Positions 5,977-45,860 of a stretch of DNA of 64,000 nt are shown here, piece after piece. The notes beneath the pieces were generated by a model. That model had not been told where the DNA came from. It saw only the letters and a list, made by a program, of their open reading frames with translations, and made no database searches. The DNA is from Flavivirga spongiicola (GTDB lineage Bacteria > Bacteroidota > Bacteroidia > Flavobacteriales > Flavobacteriaceae). Where the stretch lies: the NCBI RefSeq assembly GCF_030540825.1, contig NZ_JAUOEO010000001.1:841001-905000 (forward strand). The letters are read 5' to 3'. The stretch's first letter is position 1. Each line of letters starts with the position of its first letter. Both the position numbers and the translations under genes were made by a program.

Positions 5977-5978
5977 TC

Positions 5979-10103: not shown

Positions 10104-10226
10104 TTAAATTTTTAAACTCTTTAAATGGTTAAAAAGTTCTTCATATCTACAAAAAGTATCTTCTTTTAACTTTTGAGGGCTTTTAGTAATCATTTTACAT
10201 AGACATTCTACGTGGTTTTCCAGCAT
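10104..10226 (-). CDS. Small unidentified ORF downstream of the phosphofructokinase gene
   Basis: Forty codons run from the ATG at 10226 (MLENHVECLCKMITKSPQKL...). The frame stays open about 100 nt further upstream, to just inside the phosphofructokinase 3' end, with lysine-rich, well-formed codons (TTKFKNKKIKKQLALLIKGK). I do not recognise it. It may be a small helical protein, or the tail of a gene whose start was lost when it was joined to the phosphofructokinase gene. No start codon lies in the extended part. Confidence 0.3.
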   Translation of the reverse strand: MLENHVECLCKMITKSPQKLKEDTFCRYEELFNHLKSLKI

Positions 10227-10314
10227 GGGTTTATTGTAGCGTTCTTTTCCTTTAATAAGTAAAGCTAATTGTTTTTTAATCTTTTTATTTTTAAACTTTG
10301 TGGTTTCTAAATTC

Positions 10315-21021: not shown

Positions 21022-21072
21022 TTTATTTCATTTTATTTTCAACTATATCTTTATTGCATTTCACAAATTATC

Positions 21073-22125: not shown

Positions 22126-22137
22126 CCTATGTAGAGT

Positions 22138-22938
22138 TTACTTTTTAACTCTAGGTGGTCTCGGATCATACTGAATGGTATTGTTCATATAACCTCCATC
22201 AATATATAAATCTGCACCATGAATATAAGATGCCATATCACTAGCCAAAAACACAACTGCATTTGCAACATCTTCCACCTCTCCTATGTTTCCTGATGGA
22301 ATCCATTTTTCAAATTTTTCTATACCAAATTTTTTAATTTCTTCTCGATTCATTTCTGTATAAATAGCTCCTGGAGAAACAGACACTACTCTTATATTTT
22401 TGTCTACAAGTTCCAGAGACATACACTTTGAAAGCATTTTTAAACCTGCCTTAGACGAACAGTAATGAGCCAATCCTTTTCTTGGAACTACGTCATGAAT
22501 AGACGAAATATTAATAATAACACCGTTACCTGTTTTCTCCATTCTTAAACCAGCTTGTTGCGCACATAGCCATGGTCCTTTTAAGTTTATACTCAATACT
22601 CTATCCCATTCTTCTTCAGTCATCTCTAATACATGATTTATGGTTTCCATTCCTGCATTATTAACTAAAATATCGATACCTTCCCCTTTATCGTCTACAA
22701 AAGAAAACATAGCTGCTACATCTTTACTCTTAGCTATATTTGCATATACTGCCCAGGCATTTACGCCATATTTTTCCTTTATTTCAGAAACTAACAACTC
22801 TGCCTTTTCTTTATTACTATAATAATTAATAAAGACATCGGCCCCATTGGCTGCTAATTTTCTACAAATCCCTGCTCCAATACCTTGACTACCTCCTGTT
22901 ACTAAAGCCCTTTTTCCTGTTAAATCAATATTTTGCAT
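22138..22938 (-). CDS. SDR-family sugar dehydrogenase (candidate mannose 1-dehydrogenase)
   Basis: This 266-residue classical short-chain dehydrogenase has the NAD(P) loop TGGSQGIG (14-21), NNAG (93-96), catalytic Ser145/146, Tyr159 and Lys163 (YCSSK), and the SPGAIYTEM substrate-side loop. It resembles glucose 1-dehydrogenase-like and gluconate 5-dehydrogenase-like SDRs. The stop is 12 nt from the lactonase start, so the two are probably co-translated. An aldose 1-dehydrogenase beside a lactonase and mannonate dehydratase would give a complete oxidative route from mannose to KDG. A fructuronate- or KDG-type oxidoreductase role is the main alternative. Confidence 0.78.
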   Translation of the reverse strand: MQNIDLTGKRALVTGGSQGIGAGICRKLAANGADVFINYYSNKEKAELLVSEIKEKYGVNAWAVYANIAKSKDVAAMFSFVDDKGEGIDILVNNAGMETINHVLEMTEEEWDRVLSINLKGPWLCAQQAGLRMEKTGNGVIINISSIHDVVPRKGLAHYCSSKAGLKMLSKCMSLELVDKNIRVVSVSPGAIYTEMNREEIKKFGIEKFEKWIPSGNIGEVEDVANAVVFLASDMASYIHGADLYIDGGYMNNTIQYDPRPPRVKK

Positions 22939-22966
22939 CTCTATTTATAGTTTCGTTGTGAATGGA

Positions 22967-24412: not shown

Positions 24413-24467
24413 TTATTTTAGTTTTAATTAAATTTATTTGATAGCTACTGCACAATACAGCCTTTTC

Positions 24468-25391: not shown

Positions 25392-25412
25392 AATAAAATT
25401 TTTACACAAAAA

Positions 25413-26105: not shown

Positions 26106-26127
26106 TACTATTATATTTTATTTTTTA

Positions 26128-29512: not shown

Positions 29513-29537
29513 TTTTATTTTTATAAAATTATTTTCA

Positions 29538-29551
29538 CTAAAGCGCTTTAG
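29538..29551. promoter_or_regulatory. LacI-type operator before the mannoside operon
   Basis: CTAAAGCGCTTTAG is a perfect 14-bp palindrome with the central CG typical of LacI/GalR operators. It sits between the lacI stop (29580) and the first GH38 start (29512). The identical sequence recurs at 45324-45337, and close variants occur at 30626, 33709, 35765 and 45210. Confidence 0.75.
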
Positions 29552-29579
29552 TTTTTATTTAAAAATTTTGCTGTTTCAA

Positions 29580-30602
29580 TCATAATGCGCCACATGATTT
29601 CCTTATAATAAGAGAGGGTTTTAACATTCTTGTTTTGTTTATTCCACTTTCATTCCCTTGAATCTCATCCATAAGTATATCTACAGAAAAATCCCCTATA
29701 TCAGCTCCTGGTTGCTTAATCGATGTAATAGGCGGGTCAACCAAATCGAAAGCACCTAACTCATCAAAACTAACAATAGCCACCTCATGTGGTACTTTTA
29801 TATTTAACCTTCGAAGCTCCCTTAATCCTAAAGATGTTAAATAATGTGTAGAAAATATTATCGAATCCACACTATTAGGAAACCTAACCAGCTCTCCCAA
29901 AGCTTCTTTAATTTCATCCTTATAATCTACATTACTCAACTCTTTCACTAAAGCATCACTTGGGTCTATATTAAACTCTTTTAACGCCTCCTGATAACCT
30001 AGCAATCGTTGTCTCATAGCTTCTAAACCTGGCTTTAAAGTAACAAACCCTATTTTACGTCTACCTAAATTTAACAAATGCTTAGTTGCTTTTTGAACAC
30101 CTTCAAAATTATCAACAACAACATAGTTCGTATCTATTTCTGGATATAACCTATCAATTAAAACAAATGGAAGCTTATTATCCTTCAGCAACTCAATATC
30201 TTCTGAATTATGTTGCGTTGATGCTAAAATTAAACCATCTACCTGACGATTAATCATCGACTGAATTAACTTTGCCTCATTTTTAGGGTCTTTATTAGAA
30301 CTTGCATACATAACCACATAACCATATTCTTTTGCTTTTCTCTCAATATGTCCCGCTATTTTAGCATAATGATCATCTGAAATATTAGGGATTATTAACC
30401 CTATAGTTTCACTTTTACCTCTACTTAATCCTCGTGCGAGAGAATTAGCTACATAATTGTGCCTCTTAGCATACTCCAAAATTTTTTGCTGTGTATCCTG
30501 ACTAATCTTGTTCTCATCTCCCTTATTATTTAAAACAAGAGACACGGCTGTTGTAGAAACATTCAAGTTTTTAGCAATATCTTTTAAATATAATTTTTTC
30601 AA
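29580..30602 (-). CDS. LacI/GalR-family transcriptional regulator
   Basis: This 340-residue protein has an N-terminal LacI helix-turn-helix (YLKDIAKNLNVSTTAVSLVLNN, about 5-26; hinge NYVANSLARGLSRG), followed by a periplasmic-binding-protein-like ligand domain (ETIGLIIPNISDDHYAKIAG; DGLILASTQ; DRLYPEID). It would repress or activate in response to a sugar or sugar acid. Palindromes with TAAA-CG-TTTA symmetry lie in its own promoter and before the operon, supporting local and self control. The ligand is probably mannose, mannonate or KDG, by context only. Confidence 0.92.
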   Translation of the reverse strand: MKKLYLKDIAKNLNVSTTAVSLVLNNKGDENKISQDTQQKILEYAKRHNYVANSLARGLSRGKSETIGLIIPNISDDHYAKIAGHIERKAKEYGYVVMYASSNKDPKNEAKLIQSMINRQVDGLILASTQHNSEDIELLKDNKLPFVLIDRLYPEIDTNYVVVDNFEGVQKATKHLLNLGRRKIGFVTLKPGLEAMRQRLLGYQEALKEFNIDPSDALVKELSNVDYKDEIKEALGELVRFPNSVDSIIFSTHYLTSLGLRELRRLNIKVPHEVAIVSFDELGAFDLVDPPITSIKQPGADIGDFSVDILMDEIQGNESGINKTRMLKPSLIIRKSCGAL

Positions 30603-30625
30603 TTGAAAATATTTTAACCTTCTGG

Positions 30626-30639
30626 CTAAATCGGTTTAG
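30626..30639. promoter_or_regulatory. LacI-type operator at the lacI transcription start
   Basis: CTAAATCGGTTTAG lies 24-37 nt upstream of the lacI ATG. It falls right where transcription from the promoter at 30646-30674 would begin, as expected for autorepression. Confidence 0.65.
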
Positions 30640-30645
30640 TTAAGG

Positions 30646-31085: not shown

Positions 31086-33686
31086 TTAATCTATTACAAC
31101 TTTTCCTGTAAAAGATTTACCATTAATTTTCACTTTATAAATATACACTCCTGAAGACAAACCTGAAACATCATATGAATATGTTGATCCATATTGGTCT
31201 GATGTATTTAATTTTACAGATTTGCCAAGTAATGTTATTAACTCAATTTCCTTATCAAAACTATTTACTTTTCCTAACTTAACATTTAAAACATCTTGAT
31301 TAGGTGGCTGAAATACTGTTAAAACTGGAGTGTTTATAATAACTTCCTTAGGGGTAGTTTGTACATTTTTTCCATTACCATTTTTTGCTACAGCAGGGTC
31401 AACAAATCCTGGTTTATTATAAAATGATACTTTATCTATATTGAGGTTAAGATTATCCCACCAATACACCCTAACCACTATATGATCATTTGATATATTT
31501 GTTTCATTGTATTCTTTTGCATTGTATATTACACTAAAATACTGATAGCTACTAGGCGACAAAGGAAACTCCCCTTGTTCTACATGCCTAGATGCAATTA
31601 AGGTATTGGTGGTTATATCATAAACCTCAATAGTTGCAACCACTGTATTTGAATTTTTTATGTAATTATCTATTTTCATTTGAACAGAAGCTACCGTCAG
31701 GGTATCATTTCCCAAATATGTTTGTGGTACAGGTCCATAAATAACATGTGCAGCATTATGGCTTGCTGTTGTTAACCGGATCCCTTCAGCAATAGCATCA
31801 TGCCCTGGTGCTTTAATTATGGTATCGTTCTCTGTTTCAAATTGTTTAAATTCAAAGCTTTTTGATGGTTTATTTACAATATCTTTCATAGAAGTCCCTT
31901 GTGGAAAACCTATCCGTTTAACCCCTTCAACACTATACTTCCCTCCTGCTATTGAACCAGTAATTCCGCCGCCTCCTTCTTGTCCTATGGTTCCAAAAGG
32001 TAACATGCCGCCACCAATTTCTAAACAACCTAATTGTGTACATACACAGTGACCGGTAGCACCATTAATATCTGGCAAAACCGTATGAAATAAATCACCA
32101 ATATGTGCCATATGTATAGATTTACCTACATCGAAAGAAGCATTGGAGCTCAAAGTATACGATTGTCTAGCCCAAGAAAACTCATCATCTCCAGATGTTG
32201 CTCCTGTTAAATCTAGATCGGGGTTAATATATCGCCATTTTTTAGGTAAATATATCTGATCTTTTATTCTATATTTTACATCCACATGCGAATCTCTGAC
32301 CTTTTCATAGAATGTTTCATTTGGATAAATATAATCAGCTAAATTTATTTTAGAAGTGAAGTCATTTGCATATTTCGTTATAGCAATTCCATGAATAATA
32401 GACCAACCACCCATTTGAGGAAATCCAAAATCAGGGTTTCCAACTTCATTATAATATTGATATGTCCTATCAAAATAAGGCTCATCGCCATAAAACTTAT
32501 ACCCCATTAACAAATAAACAGGCCTACGAATACCATCTAAAAAAAGCATATTTGTATTACACCAATCCTGATCATAGACCTCATCTGCATCCCCTAGTTT
32601 TTTCACCAAGGCCTTGCTCTTAACAGTAAATGTATCCCCTGAAACTAATGCTTCAATAGGAGCATTATATTGTCCCCAAGGTTGCCGGTTTACTGTTGCA
32701 CATTCACTCCACCACTTAAAATCAGGATCACTCCCCATATTAGCTTCATCAATACTATACCAGTTACACACTTCAGTAAGACATAAATCATTCCCTTCAT
32801 TTAAGGAAGAAGGAATTTCATAATGTTCCGCTCCAGCATATCCTATAGGCCAGTCACCATCTCCTTTTTCTCCTATAGCCAAGAAGTTATAAGGACGAGT
32901 CCCCTCCTTTTGAACAAAATCCAAACTATCTCCATCAAGCCCATTTAGCAACCACAATCCGTTTAATTTTCCATAAAAGCCTGTTTGATCTATCCATGCT
33001 ATATAATACTTACCTACAAATATTAAATCCCACATGTTTGGCTCGTCGTACCCCCCAGCAGAAAAACCCAATCCAGTTATAGCATTGTTAACTAAAGTAT
33101 CTACATGTGAGCTAGAACTTGAACTCTTATTGGTGATACGAGGTGTTCCTACTAAATGTTTATTTGTAGTAAACCTGAATTCTTTAATAGTAATTTTTTT
33201 TGTATCATTCCAATACAACCTTGGTTGAATAAGGTGATTAAGCTTACCCTCTAGAGAAAAATGGAGTTCAAATTCCTGGTACTCATCAGATTTAACAAAT
33301 TCATTTTGCCAAATAACTCTAGAACTTAACACTTTATTATCTGTATAATCTATGACCTCCATATTCAAAACTTGAGCTGCACCATGATTATCATCAATCT
33401 TTATTCTAAAAAAAGCTTTCCCGCTTCCTTCATGTAATTTATATGTACGAGGGCCATTCACTAGATACCCTGCATTATGCAAGTTTGGATCGGCATACCA
33501 ACTTTGGCTATCACCTGGATCTACGGCTCCAGTATCATCATGGCACAAACTAGCCCCAGAATAAGTTAAACTTACTTGATGATCATTCAGAGGTTCCCCA
33601 TAATCATCACAAGCTCTTTGACCAAATAACCATTGACCTGTTATAAGAACAAGAAAAACACTAAAAATACTTTTACTTATTTTCAT
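31086..33686 (-). CDS. Large secreted protein of unrecognised family, T9SS tail (copy 1)
   Basis: This 866-residue protein has a signal peptide (cut near WLFGQ-R). A beta-rich, carbohydrate-binding-like region (about 25-180) contains HEGSGKAFFRIKIDD and ends in KEFRFTTNKHLVGTP. A large core (about 190-620) is rich in Trp, Tyr and Gly, with blocks GKYYIAWIDQTGFYG, WWSECATVNRQPWGQY, HIGDLFHTVLPDINGATGHC and GTIGQEGGGGITGS. A second beta-sandwich-like region (about 630-770) follows, and then a T9SS type A sorting tail (SGLSSGVYIYKVKINGKSFTGKVV). I do not recognise the core as a known hydrolase or lyase family. A near-identical copy lies at 42598-45186, on the other side of a SusCD locus. LacI-like palindromes upstream suggest co-regulation with mannoside genes. 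A glycan-active or glycan-binding surface protein is the best guess. Confidence 0.8.
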   Translation of the reverse strand: MKISKSIFSVFLVLITGQWLFGQRACDDYGEPLNDHQVSLTYSGASLCHDDTGAVDPGDSQSWYADPNLHNAGYLVNGPRTYKLHEGSGKAFFRIKIDDNHGAAQVLNMEVIDYTDNKVLSSRVIWQNEFVKSDEYQEFELHFSLEGKLNHLIQPRLYWNDTKKITIKEFRFTTNKHLVGTPRITNKSSSSSSHVDTLVNNAITGLGFSAGGYDEPNMWDLIFVGKYYIAWIDQTGFYGKLNGLWLLNGLDGDSLDFVQKEGTRPYNFLAIGEKGDGDWPIGYAGAEHYEIPSSLNEGNDLCLTEVCNWYSIDEANMGSDPDFKWWSECATVNRQPWGQYNAPIEALVSGDTFTVKSKALVKKLGDADEVYDQDWCNTNMLFLDGIRRPVYLLMGYKFYGDEPYFDRTYQYYNEVGNPDFGFPQMGGWSIIHGIAITKYANDFTSKINLADYIYPNETFYEKVRDSHVDVKYRIKDQIYLPKKWRYINPDLDLTGATSGDDEFSWARQSYTLSSNASFDVGKSIHMAHIGDLFHTVLPDINGATGHCVCTQLGCLEIGGGMLPFGTIGQEGGGGITGSIAGGKYSVEGVKRIGFPQGTSMKDIVNKPSKSFEFKQFETENDTIIKAPGHDAIAEGIRLTTASHNAAHVIYGPVPQTYLGNDTLTVASVQMKIDNYIKNSNTVVATIEVYDITTNTLIASRHVEQGEFPLSPSSYQYFSVIYNAKEYNETNISNDHIVVRVYWWDNLNLNIDKVSFYNKPGFVDPAVAKNGNGKNVQTTPKEVIINTPVLTVFQPPNQDVLNVKLGKVNSFDKEIELITLLGKSVKLNTSDQYGSTYSYDVSGLSSGVYIYKVKINGKSFTGKVVID

Positions 33687-33708
33687 AATAAAATGTTTAA
33701 CTTAATAA

Positions 33709-33722
33709 CTACATCGGTTTAG
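33709..33722. promoter_or_regulatory. LacI-like half-degenerate operator before copy 1
   Basis: CTACATCGGTTTAG matches the operator set with one mismatch in the left half, 23-36 nt upstream of the copy-1 start. A second degenerate site (CCAAACCGATTTAA) lies at 33774-33787. Confidence 0.45.
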
Positions 33723-33835
33723 TTATTAGTGTTAATTAAAAAATCTTTTTAACTTTCAAAACTTAAGCAATAACCAAACCGATTTAATCATTGTTCAAAA
33801 AAATCTAATAGATTAATTACTTTTTATAAGGGTAA

Positions 33836-35662
33836 TTAATTTACTTCACTAGGGTAATGCAACTTTCGTATTCTCCAAATAAGTTCTTCTGGAGACACAA
33901 CATTTACATTACTGTCCAATTTATCAATGGTCCATTTTACTGGAGTAAGTCCACGTGCCTGTACACCATTCTCCTCAAAGGTTGACCATGCATGCACATT
34001 AGTCCAGCTCATGGCTGAAGCCCCTTGCTGAATAGCCTGATTACTTTCTGAATTAATGAGACCAGATATTTTAGTGGGATCACCAGATCGTTCAAAATTG
34101 GTGCCGTTCCATAATGAGTATTTCGATGAAATTATTGGTATGTGCTTTCCTTCTTTATTTGTAGCCCAATATATTTCTCCATTTCCACTTTCATAAGGTG
34201 AGAAATCATTAACAATCATACCTATTATATCTAATTCTTCAGCATAAACTTGGAAAGCCAGTTTAGCCTCAGCACTATGCAAGTCTCTAGTAATAAAGCC
34301 AAAAATATTGGCGCCCGTTTTTTTAAGATGAAGATTAATTTTCTTAGCAAATTTTCTTAACATAGGTTCACTACCTCCTCTTAATTTCCCAAACATATCT
34401 GGGTAATGATATCCACCTCCATATTCAATTACAGATGTTTGAGTTGGTTGTGTATCAGAAAGATAATCTATTGCATCTGGATACGTTTCTGATAAATTAG
34501 AAACGCAAGTGGTCCATCCCATTGGAAAATCACCGTGGTTTTCATTTGCCCAATAATCGGTATGATGGAAAAAGCTCCCTGAAAGCCATTGTATATTATC
34601 ACCATCAGACATAATAAAACTATGAAAACTACCTTCCTTATCAAAGTCAATATTTTCATGTGAAACAGTCTTTACCTTTTTAGGTTGATACTCATGAGCT
34701 CCAGCAGAGGTTACTGTCATATTCCAGCACCAGTTTGTGGCTGTTGTAAACAGTCCGTTTATAGAAGCCTCTTCGGTATAAGTATGTTCGCCTCCAAAAT
34801 TCCAACCTAAAACTGGAGATATTGGATTTAAGTCTGCTAAAAACACTTCCAGTGGTGTGCCTAATCCATAAAATGAACCTGCATTGTGTGCTATGGCCAT
34901 TCCTCTTTGATTCGGATAAGCCGGGTCACTCATTAAAATAAGGTTTTTATTTAAAGCTGGTTTCAGCCTCCTATAATGGGTTAAATAATTTTCCTTATTA
35001 GCATCATAAATCATTTTTATTCCTAGTTTCTCTGCTTTATCTTTCAGCTTTTTTTCAACAATTATTCCCTTTAAAACAGCAGCGGCTGAGGTTGCGAAAT
35101 TCGCTGACTCATTCCTTCCTGCTCTATCGTCATAAGAATTCCCAGTTGAATTATCAGCCTTATAACTAATATACCCAGGTATAAGTCCTTTATCATTAAA
35201 CCTTCTAACAATATCCCATAAGGTAAGCCTAATTACTTCTGTAAAACCTTGGCGTGCTTTCAATTTATCCAACCAAATTGGATAGGATCCATGAAATGCT
35301 TCAATCCATACCATTTCATCATTCAATCCTTCATTAACTGCCCAAGCCGCAATACCTGCAAGTGATTCTGCAAGAACCCTCTCATCATATGCCTCGGGAT
35401 AAAGATTGCATATAATTAACTTTTTGGCTTTATTTTGATTAGGCCACCAATATTCTTCATCTACTGTAAAAGTCTTAGGTGTAACCTCAATATCATCATT
35501 AATATTAACAACAGGTGGGTCTGGTTCTTGATTGTCATCTATAGGATTATCTTTACTACATCCCAAACCCACAAATAACATAAAAAGAATGCCTATTATA
35601 CTAAGGATAGGAATAGATACATAATCTTCCTTTTTTAAGGATTGACACTTTTTCTTTATCAT
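33836..35662 (-). CDS. GxGYxYP-family putative glycoside hydrolase, lipoprotein
   Basis: This 608-residue protein has a lipoprotein signal ending at Cys35 (FVGLGCSKDN) and a Pro/Asp-rich linker. The family-naming motif is present as GGGYHYP (415-421). Other blocks are NFGGEHTYTEEASINGLF, FIMSDGDNIQWLSGSF and AGAHEYQPKKV. GxGYxYP proteins (separate N- and C-terminal domains in domain databases) occur in Bacteroidetes glycan loci and are predicted, not proven, to be glycosidases. It lies between the T9SS binding-type protein and copy 1 of the unknown family. Its upstream region shares a leader element with the SusC and T9SS genes. Confidence 0.82.
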   Translation of the reverse strand: MIKKKCQSLKKEDYVSIPILSIIGILFMLFVGLGCSKDNPIDDNQEPDPPVVNINDDIEVTPKTFTVDEEYWWPNQNKAKKLIICNLYPEAYDERVLAESLAGIAAWAVNEGLNDEMVWIEAFHGSYPIWLDKLKARQGFTEVIRLTLWDIVRRFNDKGLIPGYISYKADNSTGNSYDDRAGRNESANFATSAAAVLKGIIVEKKLKDKAEKLGIKMIYDANKENYLTHYRRLKPALNKNLILMSDPAYPNQRGMAIAHNAGSFYGLGTPLEVFLADLNPISPVLGWNFGGEHTYTEEASINGLFTTATNWCWNMTVTSAGAHEYQPKKVKTVSHENIDFDKEGSFHSFIMSDGDNIQWLSGSFFHHTDYWANENHGDFPMGWTTCVSNLSETYPDAIDYLSDTQPTQTSVIEYGGGYHYPDMFGKLRGGSEPMLRKFAKKINLHLKKTGANIFGFITRDLHSAEAKLAFQVYAEELDIIGMIVNDFSPYESGNGEIYWATNKEGKHIPIISSKYSLWNGTNFERSGDPTKISGLINSESNQAIQQGASAMSWTNVHAWSTFEENGVQARGLTPVKWTIDKLDSNVNVVSPEELIWRIRKLHYPSEVN

Positions 35663-35714
35663 AATTTTTACTTTTACTTTTATTTTTAATTTTACTATTA
35701 GCTAATTAAAGCTA

Positions 35715-35742
35715 GCATCCAATTTCGACCAACTACAAATGA
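35715..35742 (-). promoter_or_regulatory. Shared leader element (site 1 of 3)
   Basis: GCATCCAATTTCGACCAACT and the following ACAAATGA on the plus strand recur, with few changes, upstream of 37112 and 42380. The element ends 53 nt before the GxGYxYP start. A LacI-like site (ATAAATCGTTTTAG, 35765-35778) lies just upstream of it. Confidence 0.45.
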
Positions 35743-35764
35743 ATAGCTTATAACCATCAGAGAA

Positions 35765-35778
35765 ATAAATCGTTTTAG
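35765..35778. promoter_or_regulatory. LacI-like operator before the GxGYxYP gene
   Basis: ATAAATCGTTTTAG matches the 14-bp palindrome set with the first base changed and an imperfect right half. It overlaps the stop codon of the upstream gene, about 100 nt before the GxGYxYP start. Confidence 0.4.
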
Positions 35779-37112
35779 TTATTTTTTATAAATCGAATGG
35801 TTTCCTTTCCATTTTTAACAAAGACCTCTATAAAATACATACCATTTGTTAAATTAGACACACCAAATTGGGTTTGTTTATTATTAATTGTTTGTATTAA
35901 ATTCCCTAATACATCATAAATTCGGGCAGATTCCACTTCTTTGTTTAAAACAAATGTGTCTTTAACTGGGTTAGGGTATAATTTTAATGTTGAAATCAAG
36001 GTCTTATCATTAACAGAAAGTGATCCAGCTCCTAAAGATGGCCCTTGTAAAGCATCAAAATAATACTTGTTGCCAGCTGTTCCCTTCTCAAAATAATCAA
36101 AAAAGATATGTACCTTTTTAATGTCACCACCCGATGCAAGGCTTAAATCTACCTCTATATCAGTCCACCTATTTGCATGAGCATAATAGCCTACTTCTTG
36201 ATTATTTTCCCCACTGTCAAAAACTATTGCATCGGCACTATTTAATAGCCTAACATTTACTGTGCCATGGTCTGATCCATTGGTACAATCTGCCAATACT
36301 TTAAACTTTAACATTCCTGAATTAGGAATTGCAGCATCTAAAACATAGGTAGTCCAAACATGATCTGTTCCATTGTTAACTACTCTATTTACTGTCGTGC
36401 TATTTAATCCTTCTGCATTGGGGTTCGTTGTGGTATCTAATGTAGAGGTTCCTCCTTGAATTGGGTTTAAACTTGTACTGGAGCCTCCAGGGTAATCATA
36501 CCATGTATTTCCAGATTCTAACGTTGCAGCAACAGATGCTGAGGCAGTCGGCTCGACCGTTATCTGAAAATCGTCAATATATAATGGTTCCACGCTTGTA
36601 GCGTTATATAAAGGATAAATCACTACGGTATCATAATCAAGACCTCCATTAGGTATTAGACTCCCAGTAATTTCGGTCCATGATGCATCCACCTTACTAG
36701 CTACAAACACTTGAGAATAATTATTATGTTGTCCTACGGAAGAATGAAAAAATCTAACATAAAACCCACCACTAGTAGTTGAAGCGGGGGCATAATATCT
36801 TAATTTAAATTGATAACCTTCAGTACTACTTATAGTTTCAGGCAACTTGAATGCAATATAGTGACCAACATGAGTTGCTAGTATTTTTTTTACATATGGG
36901 TTTTGAGTATCTGAAGCGTCTGGGTTTGCTACTTTGGTATACCTATTCTCTCCCATCCACCAATAAGCGCCATTTATTGGGTTACTATTAGCAATATCAA
37001 GTGTTAAAAGATCTTTACAACTATCATAATCCAGATAGTCGTAATATGTTTGAGCTGGCAAAACAAAAGAAGCAAGAAATAATCCTACACATAAAAGTAA
37101 ATTTTTATTCAT
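35775..37112 (-). CDS. Secreted two-domain carbohydrate-binding-like protein with T9SS tail
   Basis: This 445-residue protein has a signal peptide (about 1-20, cut near VLPAQ-T). Two beta-sandwich-like domains follow: about 45-190 (GHYIAFKLPETISSTEGYQF; EPLYIDDFQITVE) and about 200-360 (HVWTTYVLDAAIPNSGMLKF; KVHIFFDYFEKGTAGNKYYF). Each ends in a strand with the IDDF/FDALQ-type pattern common in carbohydrate-binding modules. The last 75 residues are a T9SS type A tail (LKLYPNPVKDTFVL ... GMYFIEVFVKNGKETIRFI). No catalytic motif was seen. Next to SusCD it is probably a surface glycan-binding protein. Confidence 0.75.
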   Translation of the reverse strand: MNKNLLLCVGLFLASFVLPAQTYYDYLDYDSCKDLLTLDIANSNPINGAYWWMGENRYTKVANPDASDTQNPYVKKILATHVGHYIAFKLPETISSTEGYQFKLRYYAPASTTSGGFYVRFFHSSVGQHNNYSQVFVASKVDASWTEITGSLIPNGGLDYDTVVIYPLYNATSVEPLYIDDFQITVEPTASASVAATLESGNTWYDYPGGSSTSLNPIQGGTSTLDTTTNPNAEGLNSTTVNRVVNNGTDHVWTTYVLDAAIPNSGMLKFKVLADCTNGSDHGTVNVRLLNSADAIVFDSGENNQEVGYYAHANRWTDIEVDLSLASGGDIKKVHIFFDYFEKGTAGNKYYFDALQGPSLGAGSLSVNDKTLISTLKLYPNPVKDTFVLNKEVESARIYDVLGNLIQTINNKQTQFGVSNLTNGMYFIEVFVKNGKETIRFIKNN

Positions 37113-37156
37113 AATATTTTATTTTATAAAAAGTTAATTATAGTTTAATTAAGGTT

Positions 37157-37185
37157 CCATCCCAATTTGATCAACAACAAATGAA
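37157..37185 (-). promoter_or_regulatory. Shared leader element (site 2 of 3)
   Basis: The plus strand reads CCATCCCAATTTGATCAACA then ACAAATGAA. It aligns with sites 35715-35742 and 42409-42445 and lies 45-73 nt upstream of the T9SS binding-type protein. Confidence 0.45.
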
Positions 37186-37306
37186 GTGAATACAATAATT
37201 AATTAAAGTTATTCATGTATTATATATTTTTAAAAAGAAAAACTATTTAGCATCATATACATTTTTGTTAGACTATGACAAAGTGCCAAACATTATTTTT
37301 TACTCT

Positions 37307-37358
37307 AAAAAAGCGATAAAGGATATAGTAAATATTATATTTTAAGCCTTTATCGCTT
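37307..37358 (-). terminator. Strong terminator after the second susD
   Basis: A perfect 12-bp stem, AAGCGATAAAGG (37311-37322) with CCTTTATCGCTT (37347-37358), is followed on the minus strand by a T-run. It lies 23 nt past the SusD stop, so the downstream T9SS gene needs its own promoter. Confidence 0.75.
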
Positions 37359-37380
37359 AATAGCTACTAATCAAATAGTT

Positions 37381-39084
37381 CTAATAACCTGTATTTTGAA
37401 ATAGTCCTTCTTTATCGGACACAATATCAATTTCTGTTTGAGGAATAGGCCAAAGCAGTCTATAGTCATTAAAATTAAATGCACCTGAATAATAACCTAC
37501 TCCTGGATTAGCAGGTAGTCTAGATTGGGTAGCTGCCTGAAGTCTATTGGTTCTAAGCAAATCGAATTTACGATGATGCTCATAACATAATTCAAACGCA
37601 CGCTCTAACATAATAGCATCCAAATCAAGACTTCCAGATGTGTAATTACTAAATTCTGGCGTACTAGATTCTGCTACGTTTGGAGAAAAACCTGTTGCGG
37701 TTTCATCGTTAAATTGTCTCGCTCTATTTCGTATATCATTCACCAAATCGACAGCAGTTTGTGAAGCTATTCCTCCATTTGCCTCTAAATCTGCCTCCGC
37801 ATACATTAATAATACATCTGCATAACGAAGTACAATACCATTATTTGGTGTGTTTACCCCATCATAAGGACTCCATTCATTCCATTTTTCAGTCCATCTA
37901 TATTTCGTAATTCCCATACCCCAATAAAAATGATTTATATATTGACCACCAACAACCAAATCTAAATCATCTTCCCAATCTATGAGTTGATCATATTCAG
38001 CCCCATTAATCATAGAAATTCTCCATGGTGGATTATTCCAATAAAAGCGTCTATCTCCTTTTTTGTAATAGGACATAAAAGACGGGGTTGGAGCAACATT
38101 TCCTGCTCCTCCCCAACCTGCTTCAGGCCATTTCCATGGAAACCAAGTTGCCATTCCCATCCATTTGGTAAATTGACTTGGATTTTCCTTAGAGAATTGC
38201 ACTTCCCAAATACTTTCAGAATTCATATTCTTATTGGCTATTGAGAAATTATCTTTGTATTTATCCAATAAAGCATAAGTTCCACTATTAATGACTTCAT
38301 TTAATACAGCCTTAGATTTATTGTATAATTCTGATGAAGATTCGGGAATAGAACTGTAACCATATTCTTCTTTACCTACCTGGCTAAGTAAATCATCAAC
38401 TTTGGCATACTTTTTTGTACTAGCCATTGTTAAATATACCTTTCCTAATAATGTTTTTGCTGCATGATGTGTAACTCTCCCAGGCTCGGTCGCATCCTTG
38501 GTTAGCGGCAAAGGCTCATTGGCAGTAGCCTCTATTAAATCCTTAACAATTTGAGCGTATATTTCACCTACCGAACTACGAGGTATTTCTTCATTACTTA
38601 CTTCAAGTGTTAATGGTACTGGTCCCCAAAGTTGAACCATTCTAAAATAAAACCAAGCACGAAGAAATTTCCCCTCAGCAATAACGCGTTGCTTAACGGC
38701 ATCATCAACTCCAGAATTCTCAGCTGATTTTATAATAATATTAGAACGACTTATCCCATTATAATATTGAATCCATGCATGATAAATTGCATTTTCATCA
38801 GATGTATAAGTGAAGTAATCAAATGTAGCAATATACTCACTAGCATATCGTGTTGCTGCAATATCGGTTCCTAACATTACAGGTACAGACATATAGTTAT
38901 CATACATTTTTTGTGTTTGAGCGTATACACCAAGAATTCCTGCTTTTAATCCTTCTTCAGTACTATAAAAATTCGAATCGGAATAACTCGTTGCCGGAAC
39001 CTCTTCCAAAATGTCGTTGCTACAGGATTGCCACACAAACAGTCCTATTAAACTAACTAATAAAATTATTTTATTTTTTTTCAT
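37381..39084 (-). CDS. susD: SusD/RagB-family outer membrane lipoprotein
   Basis: This 567-residue protein has a lipoprotein signal ending at Cys21 (FVWQSC). SusD features follow: SDSNFYSTEEGLKAGILGVYA in the N-terminal ligand region, the helix EGKFLRAWFYFRMVQLWGPVPL (about 138-160), then LLGKVYLTMAS, and the C-terminal block LERAFELCYEHHRKFDLLR and LLWPIPQTEID. It binds oligosaccharide above the SusC partner, whose stop lies 29 nt upstream. A strong terminator follows. The substrate is unknown; the LacI-like sites around the locus connect it loosely to mannosides. Confidence 0.96.
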   Translation of the reverse strand: MKKNKIILLVSLIGLFVWQSCSNDILEEVPATSYSDSNFYSTEEGLKAGILGVYAQTQKMYDNYMSVPVMLGTDIAATRYASEYIATFDYFTYTSDENAIYHAWIQYYNGISRSNIIIKSAENSGVDDAVKQRVIAEGKFLRAWFYFRMVQLWGPVPLTLEVSNEEIPRSSVGEIYAQIVKDLIEATANEPLPLTKDATEPGRVTHHAAKTLLGKVYLTMASTKKYAKVDDLLSQVGKEEYGYSSIPESSSELYNKSKAVLNEVINSGTYALLDKYKDNFSIANKNMNSESIWEVQFSKENPSQFTKWMGMATWFPWKWPEAGWGGAGNVAPTPSFMSYYKKGDRRFYWNNPPWRISMINGAEYDQLIDWEDDLDLVVGGQYINHFYWGMGITKYRWTEKWNEWSPYDGVNTPNNGIVLRYADVLLMYAEADLEANGGIASQTAVDLVNDIRNRARQFNDETATGFSPNVAESSTPEFSNYTSGSLDLDAIMLERAFELCYEHHRKFDLLRTNRLQAATQSRLPANPGVGYYSGAFNFNDYRLLWPIPQTEIDIVSDKEGLFQNTGY

Positions 39085-39113
39085 AATATATTTTTTAAAT
39101 TTAAAGACCTGTC

Positions 39114-42100
39114 TTATAATGATACATTAAGCCCTACTGCCAGTGTAGTTTCTCTTGGGTAAGCACCTCCGTCAAATCCTGAAAGCAATGATTTATATCT
39201 TCCTGTATTTACTTCTGGGTCATAACCTTTATATTTTGTCCATACTTTCAGGTTTTTTCCTGTAACAAATAATCTTAAACTACTAATTCCTAATTTAGAA
39301 ACGACCTCATTTGAAAGGTTATATGAGATTGAAACATCACTTAGTCGAATAAACGAGCCATCTTCTATAAAATGATCTGTTAATATATTCTCGTCTTGTC
39401 CTTTAACCCGTCTAATGTAATTCGTACCAGTTCCTTGATGTACTAATTCCTTATTGTCTGGATTTGCTGGATCGTAAGTATATAAAGTTGGATACCATCT
39501 ATTAGCAGTAGCAGCATTACTATTTGCAAACCCTCTTCCCGATTCTTGCCAAATTCTGTTATGATTAAATATTTTTGAACCTGAACTAAATTGTAACATG
39601 ACGTTTAAAGCAAAACCTTTATAAGTAAAATAATTACTAAATCCACCAGTAAAATCTGGACTTGACCTCCCTAGTGATACACGATCAAAAGAATCGATAA
39701 TACCATCATCGTTTTGATCTACAAACTTGGAGTCCCCTGGATAAAGTACACTTGCTGCAGTACCATTTTGAGAGATAAAACCATCTGCTATCGCAGCATC
39801 AATTTCTGCCTGAGTTTGCCATAATCCCTGAGTTTGATATCCGAACCATTCACCTATTTCCTCGCCTTCTTTCAATATTCCATAATCAAGATATAGTATA
39901 TTATCTTCCCCTATTTCAATAACCTTCGATTTGTTGAATGATATATTGAAATTTGAGTTCCATGTAAAATCCCCTCCTCTAAAAGGCGTTGCATCTAATT
40001 GTAATTCTAGCCCTTCGTTTTGAAGTTTGCCAAGATTAACTAATTGAGACGTAAACCCTGTATAACCTGGTGTAGAAACGGCTAACAATAAATCTTCGGT
40101 CGTTTTTCTGTATACATCGGCTGAAAAAATATATTTGTTTTTTGCGAATGCTAGATCAATACCTATGTCTGTTTCACTTACAGTTTCCCATTGAAGATTT
40201 GGATTTTCTGGTCTAGACGTTATACTTCCTAGTGCACGATCAACACCATTAATAGTTGTTTGAACTACATCTATAGCAGATATAGATTGATATGGACTAA
40301 GTGCTTGTTTTCCTGTTCTACCCCAACTAGCTCTGAACTTAGTATTTGGAAATCCTGAAATGTTTTTGGCAAATTTTTCATTTGATAATTTCCAAGCTAT
40401 AGCTGCTGATGGAAAATAGCCCCATTTTTTGTTTTTAGCAAATTTTGAAGACCCATCTGTACGTACGGTTGCTTTAAGCAAATATTTATCTTTATAATTA
40501 TAATTTAAACGTCCAAAAGAAGAAAGCAATTTAGATTCATCTGATAGAATAACTGGAACACCAGGTGTATCTCCTCCTGCAATACCATTATAACCCAATG
40601 ACTCAACTGCAAAACCATTAACTTTAGTTATAAACTGTTTTATTTTATTTGACTCTATTGAGCCTCCCAACATAAATGCAAAATTATGATTATCTCCAAT
40701 TTTATCATTAAAACTTAATATATTGGTATTCACCATTTGCTCTGATTTAAAAGCATGATAATTGGCTACACCTCTGGAATCCCTTCCATAAATAGTTGTT
40801 TTTGGATGGTATGAATTATTTTCGGCATGCTCTCCTCTATAGCTCCCTTGTACAGATAAACTTAACTTATCATTAAACTTAACGTTAGCTATTAAGTTTG
40901 TTTGAAATACAGAATTCCCCCATTTTTGTTCCATTAATTCCGTTAGTTTAACAGGGCTTGATATTACACCTTCTTGTCTATTTCCAGGAATATGCGACAC
41001 ATCGTAGGTTCCTTCTAAAGGCTTTATAGGTGGTTGCACTAAAGCATTTTGAACAACGCCTGTAAACCCTACGACTTTGGTTTTAGAATAATATGAATTC
41101 GTAGAGAGTTTAATGTAATCATTAATATCATTGGTTGTATTTATCGTACCATAAACCTTGTTTGTTTTATTGTTAGGCATAATCCCTTCTTGATCAAGGT
41201 AATTTAATGATACTCTTATAGTAGAATGCTCCTTACCACTTGAAAATGCTAAGTCATGATTTTGATATACTCCAGTTCTATACAAGGCATCTTGCCAATT
41301 TGTATTCACTGTATTTGGCCAGTTTTCATAATTTTTATAAGTATTTGGTTCACCATGAACATCTTTAGCATTAAAAGACCAAACATTACCCTCATCATCT
41401 TGGTAATAATCAAAATTTACAGGATCATAAGTTATCCCTCCTCTATTTGCAAATTTCACATAATTTGAATTTTGATAGTAAATCTGTTTTACCCATCCTC
41501 CGGCATCTAAAAGTTCAAGCTGCTTGGAGATATCTGAAAAGCCAGTTACAGATGTAACATCGAATTTACTAACTCCCTTTTTAGCTTTTTTAGTGGTTAC
41601 TAAAATAACACCATTGGCTCCTCTGGAACCATAAATTGCCGTTGATGCAGCATCTTTTAAAACATCTACGGATGCGACATTTGAGGCATTTAAATCAAAA
41701 TTATCCATAGGAACTCCATCAACAATATATAAGGGGTTATTCTCTCCTGTTAAAGATGTTGCACCACGAATTATTACAGTACTTCCAGAACTAGGACCTC
41801 CTTGGCTTTGGGTGATTTGCACACCACTTAATTTTCCTTTAAGCGCGTCTTGTATATCAACAACAACCCGGTCTTTTGAAAATTTATCCGATTTAATGGA
41901 AGCCGTAGCACCTGTATTATCTGCTTTTTTAACCGAACCATACCCAATAAGCACCACTTCATCAAGTTGAGATAAATCTTCTTGCATAACGACATTAATA
42001 GTCGCTTTACTACTCACTATTTTTTTAATGGTGCTAAAACCCAAATACGTGTAAACTAAAACAGCCTTTGAAGATTTAACTAAAACGGTGTAGTTTCCGT

Positions 42101-42380
42101 CAAAATCAGAAACAACGCCGTTCGAAGTACCAGCTTCAACAATATTAACACCTACAAGTGGCTTACCAGCTTCATCAGTAATAGTCCCTTTAATTTCATA
42201 TCCTTGAAAGTGAACATCTTTTTCTATCAATTTTATACTCTCCTTTTCTAAGCCTGCATATATGTGACTTATTTTATTAATAGGTTCTGCTGCTCTTGCC
42301 TGAAAGACAACACTTGCAAATGCTAAAGCAAAGCATACACAAACCCCTTTTTTTAAGGGCTGAAACATTTTTTTAATCAT
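39114..42380 (-). CDS. susC: SusC/RagA-family TonB-dependent glycan transporter (second locus)
   Basis: This 1088-residue protein has a signal peptide (about 1-31, ending QARA-A). About 30 residues of spacer lead to a carboxypeptidase-regulatory-like domain (about 62-135; IKGTITDEAGKPLVGVNI). The plug begins DEVVLIGYGSVKKAD, carries the signature IYGSRGANGVILVTTKKAKK near residue 250, and the barrel follows. It lacks an STN domain, so it is not expected to work with an anti-sigma/ECF pair. It has its own upstream region with the shared leader element and a LacI-like palindrome. It forms a unit with the SusD gene 29 nt downstream. Confidence 0.96.
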   Translation of the reverse strand: MIKKMFQPLKKGVCVCFALAFASVVFQARAAEPINKISHIYAGLEKESIKLIEKDVHFQGYEIKGTITDEAGKPLVGVNIVEAGTSNGVVSDFDGNYTVLVKSSKAVLVYTYLGFSTIKKIVSSKATINVVMQEDLSQLDEVVLIGYGSVKKADNTGATASIKSDKFSKDRVVVDIQDALKGKLSGVQITQSQGGPSSGSTVIIRGATSLTGENNPLYIVDGVPMDNFDLNASNVASVDVLKDAASTAIYGSRGANGVILVTTKKAKKGVSKFDVTSVTGFSDISKQLELLDAGGWVKQIYYQNSNYVKFANRGGITYDPVNFDYYQDDEGNVWSFNAKDVHGEPNTYKNYENWPNTVNTNWQDALYRTGVYQNHDLAFSSGKEHSTIRVSLNYLDQEGIMPNNKTNKVYGTINTTNDINDYIKLSTNSYYSKTKVVGFTGVVQNALVQPPIKPLEGTYDVSHIPGNRQEGVISSPVKLTELMEQKWGNSVFQTNLIANVKFNDKLSLSVQGSYRGEHAENNSYHPKTTIYGRDSRGVANYHAFKSEQMVNTNILSFNDKIGDNHNFAFMLGGSIESNKIKQFITKVNGFAVESLGYNGIAGGDTPGVPVILSDESKLLSSFGRLNYNYKDKYLLKATVRTDGSSKFAKNKKWGYFPSAAIAWKLSNEKFAKNISGFPNTKFRASWGRTGKQALSPYQSISAIDVVQTTINGVDRALGSITSRPENPNLQWETVSETDIGIDLAFAKNKYIFSADVYRKTTEDLLLAVSTPGYTGFTSQLVNLGKLQNEGLELQLDATPFRGGDFTWNSNFNISFNKSKVIEIGEDNILYLDYGILKEGEEIGEWFGYQTQGLWQTQAEIDAAIADGFISQNGTAASVLYPGDSKFVDQNDDGIIDSFDRVSLGRSSPDFTGGFSNYFTYKGFALNVMLQFSSGSKIFNHNRIWQESGRGFANSNAATANRWYPTLYTYDPANPDNKELVHQGTGTNYIRRVKGQDENILTDHFIEDGSFIRLSDVSISYNLSNEVVSKLGISSLRLFVTGKNLKVWTKYKGYDPEVNTGRYKSLLSGFDGGAYPRETTLAVGLNVSL

Positions 42381-42408
42381 TTTTAAATTTAAATTAAATT
42401 AGTTAGTA

Positions 42409-42445
42409 TAATCCCAATCGACCAACTACAAAAGAGACAAATACA
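42409..42445 (-). promoter_or_regulatory. Shared leader element (site 3 of 3)
   Basis: The plus strand reads TAATCCCAATCGACCAACTA and continues CAAAAGAGACAAATACA. It aligns with the elements before 35662 and 37112, including the downstream AATACAATAAT that site 2 also has. It lies 29-65 nt upstream of the SusC start. TGTATTTG, read on the minus strand within it, resembles a -7 box. Confidence 0.45.
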
Positions 42446-42559
42446 ATAATCATTCAAGACGTTGGTATTATTTTATATGTTATTCTATTAATGAATTGTT
42501 CTTTGATTATTATTCCAAATAACTTTTTTAATCCTCAGAGCTTTTTAATACCCTGAGAA

Positions 42560-42573
42560 TTAAACCAGTTTAA
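42560..42573. promoter_or_regulatory. Palindrome upstream of the second susC
   Basis: TTAAACCAGTTTAA is symmetric and resembles the LacI-type sites, but the centre is CA instead of CG and the outer bases differ. It is therefore a weak member of the set. It lies about 180 nt upstream of the SusC start. Confidence 0.35.
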
Positions 42574-42597
42574 ACACTTCTTATTTAAAGAACATTC

Positions 42598-45186
42598 TTA
42601 TTTACTAATAACAACTTTTCCTACAATAAATTTCTCATTAATTTTTACCCTGTATACATACAGACCTGAGGACAAACTTGAAATATTATATGTATAAGTT
42701 GATCCTAATTGGCTTGAAGTATTTAATTTAATACTTTTTCCAAGCATGGTTGTTAACTCCAATTCCTTATTAAACTTGCTCCCTTCACCCAGCTTTAGAT
42801 TTAAAATATTCTGATTGTATGGCTGAAATATCATTAAAGCAGGATTTTCTAAAGCAATTTCTCTTGCTGTACTTAAAGATGACGAGCTAAAACCTGTTTT
42901 ATTATAAACTGACACTTTATCTATATTGAGATTAACATTATCCCACCAATACACCCTAACCACTATATAATCATTTGATATATTTGTTTCATTGTATTTT
43001 AGTGCATTGTATTTTACACTGAAATATTCATATTTAGCATCATCTGACAATGGAAATTCTCCTAATTCGACATCTCTAGAAGATATGACGGTACTAGTGT
43101 CTATATTATATACTTCTATGGTTGCAACCTTGGTAGCAGATTGTTTTATATAAGCATTAACATCAACTTTCATCTCTACTGTAGCCACGGAAATACTATC
43201 GTTGCCTAAGTATGTTTGTGGTACAGGTCCATAAATAACATGTGCAGCATTATGGCTTGCTGTTGTTAACCGGATCCCTTCAGCAATAGCATCATGTCCA
43301 GATGCTTTAATTATGGTATCGTTCTCTGTTTCAAATTGTTTAAACTCAAAGCTTTTTGATGGTTTATTTACAATATCTTTCATAGAAGTCCCTTGTGGAA
43401 AACCTATCCGTTTAACCCCTTCAACACTATACTTCCCTCCTGCTATTGAACCAGTAATTCCTCCTCCTCCTTCTTGTCCTATGGTTCCAAAAGGTAACAT
43501 GCCGCCACCAATTTCTAAACAACCTAATTGTGTACATATACAGTGACCGGTAGCACCATTAATATCTGGCAAAACCGTATGAAATAAATCACCAATATGT
43601 GACATATGTATAGATTTACCCACATCGAAAGAAGCATTGGAGCTCAAAGTATACGATTGTCTAGCCCAAGCAAACTCATCATCTCCAGATGTTGCTCCTG
43701 TTAAATCTAGATCGGGATTAATATATCGCCATTTTTTAGGTAAATATATCTGATCTTTTATTCTATATTTTACATCCACATGCTCATCTCTACCCTTTTC
43801 ATAGAATGTTTCATTTGGATAAATATAATCAGCTAAATTTATTTTAGAAGTGAAGTCATTTGCATATTTTGTTATAGCAATTCCATGAATAATAGACCAA
43901 TGGCCCATTTGAGGAAATCCAAAATCAGGGTTTCCAACTTCATTATAATATTGATATGTCCTATCAAAATAAGGCTTATCGCTATAAAATTTATACCCCA
44001 TTAACAAATAAACTGGCCTACGAATACCATCTAAAAAAAGCATATTTGTATTACACCAATCCTGATCATAGACCCCATCTGGATCCCCTAGTTTTTTTAC
44101 CAAGGCCTTACTCTTAACAGTCATCAATGTATCCCCTGAAACTAATTCTTCAATAGGAGCATTATATTGTCCCCAAGGTTGCCGGTTTACTGTTGCACAT
44201 TCACTCCACCACTCAAAATCAGGATCACTCCCCGCATTAGCTTCATCAATACTATACCAGTTACACGCATCTTTAAGACATATATCATTCCCTTCATTTA
44301 AGGAAGAAGGAATTTCATAATGTTCCGCTCCAGCATATCCTATAGGCCAATCACCATCTCCTTTTTCTCCTATAGCCAAGAAGTTATAAGGACGAGTCCC
44401 CTCCTTTTGAACAAAATCCAAACTATCTCCATCAAGCCCATTTAGCAACCACAGTCCGTTTAACTTTCCATAAAACCCTGTTTGATCTATCCATGCTATA
44501 TAATATTTACCTACAAATATTAAATCTCTCTTGTTTGGCTCGTCGTACTCATGCCCGTTGTCATTATCAAACCCTAACCCATTAATAGCTTCTGTTATCA
44601 AACTTGTTACATGACCTATTGAGCTCTCACTTTGATTTGTAATAGGAGGTGTTCCTACTAAATGTTTATTTGTAGTAAACTTAATTTCACTTATTGTTAT
44701 TTTTCTTTCATCATACCATGTAAATTTTGGCTGTATGACATGGTCTAACCTTCCATGTAAAGAAAAATGAAGTTCAAATTCTTGAAAAGTATCTGAATTT
44801 GAAAATTCATTTTGCCAAACAGTTTTAGAAGTTAAAACTTCACTCGCTGTAACATCATACACTTCCATTTTTCCTATTTCATTTACTCCTGAATTATTAT
44901 CAATTTTCATAGTAAAATACACTTTTCCACTACCCTCATGCAATTTTTTAGTACGTGGCCCGTCTATCATGACACCAGCACTATGCGAACTAGGGTCTGT
45001 CACCCACCAATCAGCATTAGAAACATCTGCATTTCCAACACCATGGCATAAACTAGAAATATCACTATAGGTGAATGAAATTTCAGCATCATTTAAGGCT
45101 GTACCATAATCATCGCAAGGTCTTTGCCCAAACAACGATTGACCAGACACAAAAACAACAAATAGGCAAAAAATATTTCTTTTCAT
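42598..45186 (-). CDS. Large secreted protein of unrecognised family, T9SS tail (copy 2)
   Basis: This 862-residue paralogue of the protein at 31086-33686 has the same architecture: signal peptide (SLFGQ-R), beta-rich N-terminal region, large core, second beta-sandwich region and T9SS tail (SSLSSGLYVYRVKINEKFIVGKVV). The core, roughly residues 215-640, is nearly identical to copy 1 at protein and DNA level, while the first 200 and last 220 residues have drifted. One small insertion (SGDTLMTVKS versus SGDTFTVKS) and substitutions such as FGFPQMGHW/FGFPQMGGW were noted. Function is unknown. Two LacI-type palindromes lie upstream, one of them perfect. Confidence 0.8.
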   Translation of the reverse strand: MKRNIFCLFVVFVSGQSLFGQRPCDDYGTALNDAEISFTYSDISSLCHGVGNADVSNADWWVTDPSSHSAGVMIDGPRTKKLHEGSGKVYFTMKIDNNSGVNEIGKMEVYDVTASEVLTSKTVWQNEFSNSDTFQEFELHFSLHGRLDHVIQPKFTWYDERKITISEIKFTTNKHLVGTPPITNQSESSIGHVTSLITEAINGLGFDNDNGHEYDEPNKRDLIFVGKYYIAWIDQTGFYGKLNGLWLLNGLDGDSLDFVQKEGTRPYNFLAIGEKGDGDWPIGYAGAEHYEIPSSLNEGNDICLKDACNWYSIDEANAGSDPDFEWWSECATVNRQPWGQYNAPIEELVSGDTLMTVKSKALVKKLGDPDGVYDQDWCNTNMLFLDGIRRPVYLLMGYKFYSDKPYFDRTYQYYNEVGNPDFGFPQMGHWSIIHGIAITKYANDFTSKINLADYIYPNETFYEKGRDEHVDVKYRIKDQIYLPKKWRYINPDLDLTGATSGDDEFAWARQSYTLSSNASFDVGKSIHMSHIGDLFHTVLPDINGATGHCICTQLGCLEIGGGMLPFGTIGQEGGGGITGSIAGGKYSVEGVKRIGFPQGTSMKDIVNKPSKSFEFKQFETENDTIIKASGHDAIAEGIRLTTASHNAAHVIYGPVPQTYLGNDSISVATVEMKVDVNAYIKQSATKVATIEVYNIDTSTVISSRDVELGEFPLSDDAKYEYFSVKYNALKYNETNISNDYIVVRVYWWDNVNLNIDKVSVYNKTGFSSSSLSTAREIALENPALMIFQPYNQNILNLKLGEGSKFNKELELTTMLGKSIKLNTSSQLGSTYTYNISSLSSGLYVYRVKINEKFIVGKVVISK

Positions 45187-45209
45187 AATACATTTGTTTT
45201 ATCACCAAA

Positions 45210-45223
45210 CTAAACCGCTTTAG
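45210..45223. promoter_or_regulatory. LacI-type operator, proximal to copy 2
   Basis: CTAAACCGCTTTAG (one asymmetric base) lies 24-37 nt upstream of the copy-2 start, the same distance as the operators before lacI and copy 1. TATATTTTG, a -7-like element, lies immediately upstream at 45232-45240. Confidence 0.65.
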
Positions 45224-45323
45224 TTTTCTTACAAAATATAAATTATTTTTACTGAAATAAGTTCTATGTAATAAAAAAACTAAACTTTTTAAGTTATCTT
45301 ATAACATAAATATAGTTTTACAA

Positions 45324-45337
45324 CTAAAGCGCTTTAG
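45324..45337. promoter_or_regulatory. LacI-type operator, distal to copy 2
   Basis: CTAAAGCGCTTTAG is identical to the operator before the mannoside operon (29538-29551). It lies 101 bp beyond the proximal site, a spacing that could permit looping. Confidence 0.7.
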
Positions 45338-45860
45338 TTTAATAGTGTAAATAAAAATCAATTATTTGAGATATCCAAATAAAAATTATAAATTCTTTAT
45401 TTTTAAAGAATTTCATCACTATTTTACGGCATTTGCTCGAGGAAAAAATAAAATATTTACATAACAATACAGACCCAAAAAAGATTCTGTTCAAATAGTT
45501 CAGATGAACCATTGATAACGGAAATCCGTTCTATTAAAAATAATACAACCGTTTACTATAATTCTAGCATAGATGGTGACCGTTTTTTCTCTTCCCTTTT
45601 ACCTGTCGAAAAAAAATCTTAAATGTGGAAGTCTTCATTTTTCCTTCGTTTTTAAGTTAATAAATCCTTGAAACGAAAGTTAAATCACATAGAGAGCGTT
45701 GCTCTCTCTAATAAATATGTCTAGTCCTAAATAACCGATGGGTAGTGAATAGGTCTCTTTTTAGTTGCTATCAACAACCAACCAAATGAATTTTACAAAA
45801 ATTAAACTTCTTAAAATCATTTAATTAGATGTTTTTTGATATCAAATGATATCAGTGTTG

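Follow-up and report, generated by a model that had tools for sequence, protein, structure and literature searches.

Two copies of a T9SS-sorted, predicted supersandwich protein around a SusCD locus in Flavivirga spongiicola: an apparently undescribed family and a proposed endo-acting enzyme on alpha-mannan-type glycans

What might two large, related proteins do on either side of a SusCD locus when their shared core is recognised by no sequence family? This question is raised by 64,000 nt of the Flavivirga spongiicola genome (contig NZ_JAUOEO010000001.1, positions 841,001 to 905,000; hereafter, the window), where copy A (P0001) and copy B (P0002) are both encoded on the minus strand, at the coordinates given by the original prediction, which was made from the sequence of this DNA alone. 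That prediction also listed the genes in between, and all are present: SusC and SusD, a T9SS-sorted protein, and a GxGYxYP protein that starts like a lipoprotein. Our answer, which we hold tentatively but rank first among those considered, is a new family of secreted endo-acting enzymes on an alpha-mannan-type glycan, for which we infer catalysis, endo action and substrate. The core family is a concrete candidate for the endo step missing from mannose-type loci of marine Flavobacteriia. According to excerpts of PMC6298971, many such loci have no known endo enzyme, and only 2 among 17 isolates carrying mannose-type polysaccharide utilization loci (PULs) have GH76.

The core had been called unrecognised, and profile searches agree. 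P0001 and P0002 matched a single family in Pfam and NCBIfam, the type IX secretion system (T9SS) tail; P0001 returned no match to its core among PDB sequences, nor did the family profile (alignment A3) return any up to E 1. Similarly, the T9SS tail was the only confident Pfam match among the 37 members of set A1, three other families appearing at E 0.04-0.08 in one member each. The family comprises at least 71 proteins: a first search gave 37 (including P0001 and P0002) and a profile search 56, together 70, to which a search with the flanking module adds P0080. Homologue counts are lower bounds, the profile search having scored the 7999 candidates sharing most words. Alignment A2 holds 28 of the 37 proteins and A3 holds 61 of the 70 then known (9 fragments or near-duplicates dropped). 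A literature search by context words, the family being nameless, found no description of it. The family is real, small and apparently unnamed and undescribed; the suggestion of a new family stands in that respect but not for the fold, since structure prediction places the core in a known one.

By model (Foldseek, VIA), the core corresponds to the galactose-mutarotase-like supersandwich. This fold covers epimerases, lyases, hydrolases and accessory domains, and the predicted match therefore does not decide function. Foldseek against viral proteins gave two matches at E <= 0.001 (TM-score by query length <= 0.37), none in a characterised family.

Across 61 aligned rows, 27 columns are invariant, 13 of them charged; they include W231, D233, N242, R264, E273, E287, H288, E290, W326, K363, D366, R387, R407, N413, K446, D500, C547, C549 and E556, of which D233, E287/H288/E290, K363/D366, R407/N413 and E556 lie on predicted strands. 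Considering the 15 full-length rows, invariant positions concentrate in the core (86 of 426) and are few in the modules (7 of 149 in one, 7 of 146 in the other), a distribution that by inference favours an active site in the core. Residues 547-556 of P0001 contain the invariant C547-x-C549 followed by E556, which might form a disulfide or bind a metal; a His found three residues past C549 in many relatives is absent from both window copies.

The two arms around the core are, judging from profile comparison, one module present twice: the N-module profile (30 rows) aligned with the C-module profile (20 rows) at an hhalign probability of 100% (E 4e-48). No Pfam family matched the module across A1. 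Searching with the N module of P0009 returned 13 proteins among 342 candidates, namely four core-family and nine GxGYxYP proteins (P0075-P0079, P0081-P0084); this was one search, restricted to proteins of 0.55-1.75 times the P0009 length, and other bearers may exist. The nine hold one to three module copies each, some along with F5/8-type, CBM6 or T9SS domains, and a PDB search with one module bearer found 3sgg alone, over its GxGYxYP part. PF14323, the GxGYxYP family, is absent from P0001 and P0002 in the Pfam search. The modules presumably bind glycan, and the unnamed module may represent a carbohydrate-binding module family that is new. Both proteins begin with a signal-peptide-like stretch (judged by eye), and each has a C-terminal T9SS type A sorting domain (38.3 bits in P0001 and 27.4 bits in P0002, cut-off 27), in line with the signal peptides and T9SS tails claimed for them; T9SS would carry them to the outside.

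The genomic context points to mannose. Transcription order is copy B, SusC, SusD, the T9SS protein, GxGYxYP, copy A, lacI and GH38; past this GH38, in the same direction, come cupin-like, RraA-like, SASA esterase-type, sugar transporter, SDR, lactonase and mannonate dehydratase-like genes, and further downstream two GH38, GH92 and a phosphofructokinase-type protein. The window's GH38 and GH92 proteins have signal-like starts, and all three GH38 and one of seven GH92 of this genome lie in the window. A glycan-degradation setting had been proposed with mannan as a guess, and the GH92 and GH38 genes fit it. Between GH38 genes (19954-26568) lie the SDR, lactonase, mannonate dehydratase-like, RraA-like and cupin-like genes; going by their family names, the PUL might include a non-phosphorylating route of mannose oxidation. 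The window also holds sulfatase genes at 48310-49848 and 62724-63869 (the latter continuing to the window end) and a sulfate permease gene at 58413-60035; we are unsure of their tie to the PUL, as unrelated-looking genes intervene.

Scanning named genomes turned up 14 outside loci, or 15 with the window, and Pfam was run on chosen neighbours in eight of the 14 (L003, L007-L011, L014, L016). GH92 shares the locus with the core in 4 of 15: it adjoins the core gene in L007 and L008, is about 5 kb off in L011, and in the window 17 kb separate it from copy A. A single GH92 is present in the genome of L008 (3.2 Mb), as in that of L011 (6.5 Mb); by chance it would fall within 10 kb at roughly 0.6% and 0.3%, respectively, contig breaks ignored. 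Those of L009, L013 and L014 have GH92 outside the loci fetched. In L007 a GH38 C-terminal domain lies upstream, and L009 has a GH31 among its neighbours. In L008, from a Lutibacter metagenome-assembled genome (MAG), positions 1968-10937 hold a SusD-like gene (by eye), an MGH1-like glycosidase, a 588-aa unclassified protein, GH92 and the core gene one after another, a compact candidate PUL. BLAST of open reading frames (ORFs) of >=120 aa found no convincing conserved neighbour other than GH92/GH38. As for known endo enzymes, GH76 and GH99 have no match within the window; the own genome has no GH99 and one borderline GH76 match, outside the window. GH99 has one match elsewhere in the L008 genome and one below cut-off in the L007 genome.

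Taken as an endo enzyme, the protein would work as follows. The core (residues 184-609 of P0001), a lone predicted supersandwich, would be the catalytic part, flanked on each side by one copy of the probably glycan-binding module. Its active site would probably lie on the conserved strands bearing D233, E287/H288/E290, K363/D366, R407/N413 and E556. Delivered to the outside by T9SS, this surface hydrolase would cut an alpha-mannose-rich glycan into fragments for SusCD; GH38 and GH92 enzymes would then free mannose, to be oxidised by the SDR/lactonase/mannonate-dehydratase route.

Several observations weigh against this proposal. Structural similarity is distant: Foldseek TM-scores by query length are only 0.25-0.38 in the 50 matches listed, the VIA matches listed have 4-12% identity with a root-mean-square deviation of 3.6-5.3, and the match lists contain non-enzymes (YidC). 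The putative active-site residues were chosen from alignment columns and predicted strands. No GH92-like ORF was linked by BLAST in 11 of the 15 loci (the L004 contig is only 6 kb). Among scanned neighbours, those in Corallococcus L003 (three) and Teredinibacter L016 (five) are regulators or unrelated genes with no glycan degradation, L011 has no glycan-degradation genes besides GH92, and L010 and L014 show no PUL. The window's GxGYxYP protein is without the shared module, and GxGYxYP occurs in only 4 of the 15 core-bearing genomes; among other genomes from the phylum of the window the figure is 3 of 197, a contrast that is suggestive only, the two genome sets differing in phyla. Moreover, excerpts of PMC6298971 propose that GH92-rich PULs target N-glycoproteins, substrates that require no endo-mannanase, and by a personal communication in the part of PMC4071793 consulted no activity was seen for the GxGYxYP proteins of mannan PULs.

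After the endo enzyme we rank a non-catalytic surface glycan-binding protein, an unlikely but serious rival in which the supersandwich and both modules merely hold glycan for SusCD. The gene adjoins susCD, each protein has two module copies, and supersandwiches are also extra domains of multi-domain enzymes (the GH38 matches are outside the catalytic N-terminal part); against it, the strongly invariant charged residues are in the core and not in the modules, and the same invariants recur in Corallococcus and Teredinibacter, with no SusC/SusD among eight scanned neighbours. Improbable, in our view, is an exo-acting or debranching glycosidase, or an esterase/sulfatase helper, on the same glycan: the context evidence and the two copies speak for it too, as does a sulfatase gene 3 kb from copy B, but the locus is already rich in exo-mannosidase-type enzymes (one GH92, three GH38). 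A polysaccharide lyase on a uronate-containing mannan (glucuronomannan), using Lys/His/Arg catalysis like that of supersandwich lyases, is somewhat less probable still: GH88-type genes (PF07470) have no match in the window and five elsewhere in the genome, glycosidases among the scanned neighbours of L007 and L008 are GH38, GH92 and MGH1-like, and the SDR-lactonase-dehydratase set is equally compatible with mannose oxidation. Least probable is a secreted enzyme on small sugars, such as an aldose 1-epimerase (mutarotase), as none of the 37 A1 members matches a mutarotase family (Pfam, E 0.1) and neither P0001 nor P0002 does in NCBIfam, the core has one invariant His where Lactococcus lactis GalM entry titles name H96 and H170 mutants, and secretion between two modules would be odd.

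The outside loci come from Corallococcus, Myxococcus (three), a Paludibacter MAG, a Lutibacter flavus MAG, a Myxococcales MAG, Candidatus Hydrogenedens, a Deltaproteobacteria MAG, a Comamonas-labelled record, Marinibactrum, an unassigned MAG, an Actinomycetes MAG and Teredinibacter. With at most nine first-look candidates scored per genome in one set and two in the other, in the rows listed, the core was found in 1 of 99 related genomes and 1 of 395 genomes of the phylum, the own genome both times, which suggests horizontal gain. A wide spread in relatives was rejected: 18 of the 99 genomes matched, yet all but the own only within query residues 689-866. L012 (BNCN01000010.1), a record labelled Comamonas sp. 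with a stated genome size of 9 Mb, has antisense ORFs over the core gene in common with four myxobacterial loci; its label may be wrong.

The two copies had been described as near-identical, which holds for the core (about 97% identity in DNA) but not for the flanks (66-73%) or the whole proteins, 668 of 871 columns being identical (77%, BLASTP). In 25-codon bins, DNA identity is 91-100% throughout the 17 that span codons 222 to 645 and 50-79% in 17 of the 18 bins outside. Copy-A codons 222-648 have 96.7% nucleotide identity, with dN 0.023 against dS 0.077, which points to purifying selection on the core; identity is 66.2% over codons 1-221 (dS 1.24), 70.5% over 649-717 and 72.8% over 743-866. 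The maximal similar segment, codons 220-657, has a score reached in 0 of 2000 shuffles of the differences; the predicted core bounds (about 215-640) were correct to some 20 residues. Copy-A codons 718-742 (window 31461-31535) form another short tract of 93.3% nucleotide identity, separate from the main one and absent from the original prediction. At informative sites, copy A agrees with P0007 at 42 and with copy B at 13 over residues 1-221, but at 6 and 80, respectively, over residues 222-648; residues 649-866 (25 vs 28) give no clear signal. The simplest reading of this reversal is that the duplication is older than the P0007 split and that the core of one copy was later overwritten by the other through gene conversion. 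The same counts disfavour a recent whole-gene duplication; a duplication unit including flanks was also rejected, intergenic DNA giving short matches only (best E 1.4e-4 over 36 bases). The pair amounts to a natural experiment in which the same core is combined with two module sets that have diverged.

The palindrome AACTAAANCGNTTTAGTT has six sites in the window at <=1 mismatch and none in 100 shuffles; genome-wide it is found in seven places, six of them in the window, and its reversed pattern in one. The pattern was seeded by three of the sites themselves (45208, 45322, 33707). The neighbouring LacI protein may bind these palindromes.

Table 1. Features of the window, with positions counted from its first nucleotide.
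Feature	Position	Strand	Remark
Copy A (P0001, 866 aa)	31086..33686	-	signal-like start, N module, core, C module, T9SS tail
Copy B (P0002, 862 aa)	42598..45186	-	architecture as copy A
Copy A core, residues 184-609	31860..33137	-	galactose-mutarotase-like supersandwich by model
Copy B core, about residues 182-611	43354..44643	-	by alignment to copy A
Copy A N module, residues 29-177	33156..33602	-	
Copy A C module, residues 613-758	31413..31850	-	homologous to N module
Copy B N module, residues 26-175	44662..45111	-	
Copy B C module, residues 615-763	42898..43344	-	
T9SS sorting domain of copy A, residues 795-865	31092..31304	-	
T9SS sorting domain of copy B, residues 792-860	42607..42813	-	
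Putative gene-conversion tract in copy A, codons 220-657	31716..33029	-	
Matching tract in copy B	43210..44526	-	by alignment
GxGYxYP protein (PF14323)	33836..35662	-	only one found in genome
T9SS-sorted protein	35775..37112	-	otherwise unclassified
SusD	37381..39084	-	
SusC	39114..42380	-	
LacI-family regulator	29580..30602	-	
GH38	26600..29512	-	
GH38	17229..19928	-	
GH38	14053..17094	-	
GH92	11627..13930	-	
Mannonate dehydratase-like, lactonase, SDR genes	19954..22938	-	possible mannose oxidation
LacI-type palindrome upstream of copy B	45208..45225	.	seed
Second palindrome upstream of copy B	45322..45339	.	seed
Palindrome upstream of copy A	33707..33724	.	1 mismatch, seed
Palindrome upstream of GH38 gene	29536..29553	.	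1 mismatch
Palindrome upstream of GxGYxYP gene	35763..35780	.	1 mismatch
Palindrome inside 5′ part of susC	42078..42095	.	1 mismatch
Palindrome upstream of lacI	30624..30641	.	2 mismatches

Compared with known systems, the core shares its predicted supersandwich fold with GalM (4bze), the YidC periplasmic domain and GH38 and GH36 rows, but identity to the matches listed is 4-12%, no sequence family matches and the invariant residue set is its own. The GalM cleft has two catalytic His, an Asp and a Glu; the core, from alignment columns only, has one invariant His (H288) and several invariant Glu/Asp. GH186 is another catalytic supersandwich. We found no statement on its fold in PMC10514313. The endo-1,3-fucanase GH174 (9k1g) has a similar fold over the domain, with 8% identity in structural alignment; its sugar is fucose, whereas the context of the core is mannose. 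The exo-rhamnogalacturonan lyase PL26 is 4-6% identical to the core, the PL26 protein being longer and its substrate uronate. With the endo-alpha-mannanases GH76, GH99 and GH195 the core has in common only the role proposed for it, that of cutting chains at the surface in an alpha-mannan PUL; according to excerpts of PMC13063451, a GH195 endo enzyme cuts a diatom sulfated alpha-mannan. P0001 and P0002 have no match to PF03663 (GH76) or PF16317 (GH99) in Pfam at E up to 1. GxGYxYP (PF14323, 3sgg) was put forward in 2014 as a class of hydrolases of unknown specificity, and two GxGYxYP proteins belong to an alpha-mannan-responsive PUL (both from the part of PMC4071793 consulted). One member lies in the window locus and nine share the flanking module, the core-family profile matching their module part only. 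Through this module the two families are linked, and the substrate of one would suggest that of the other.
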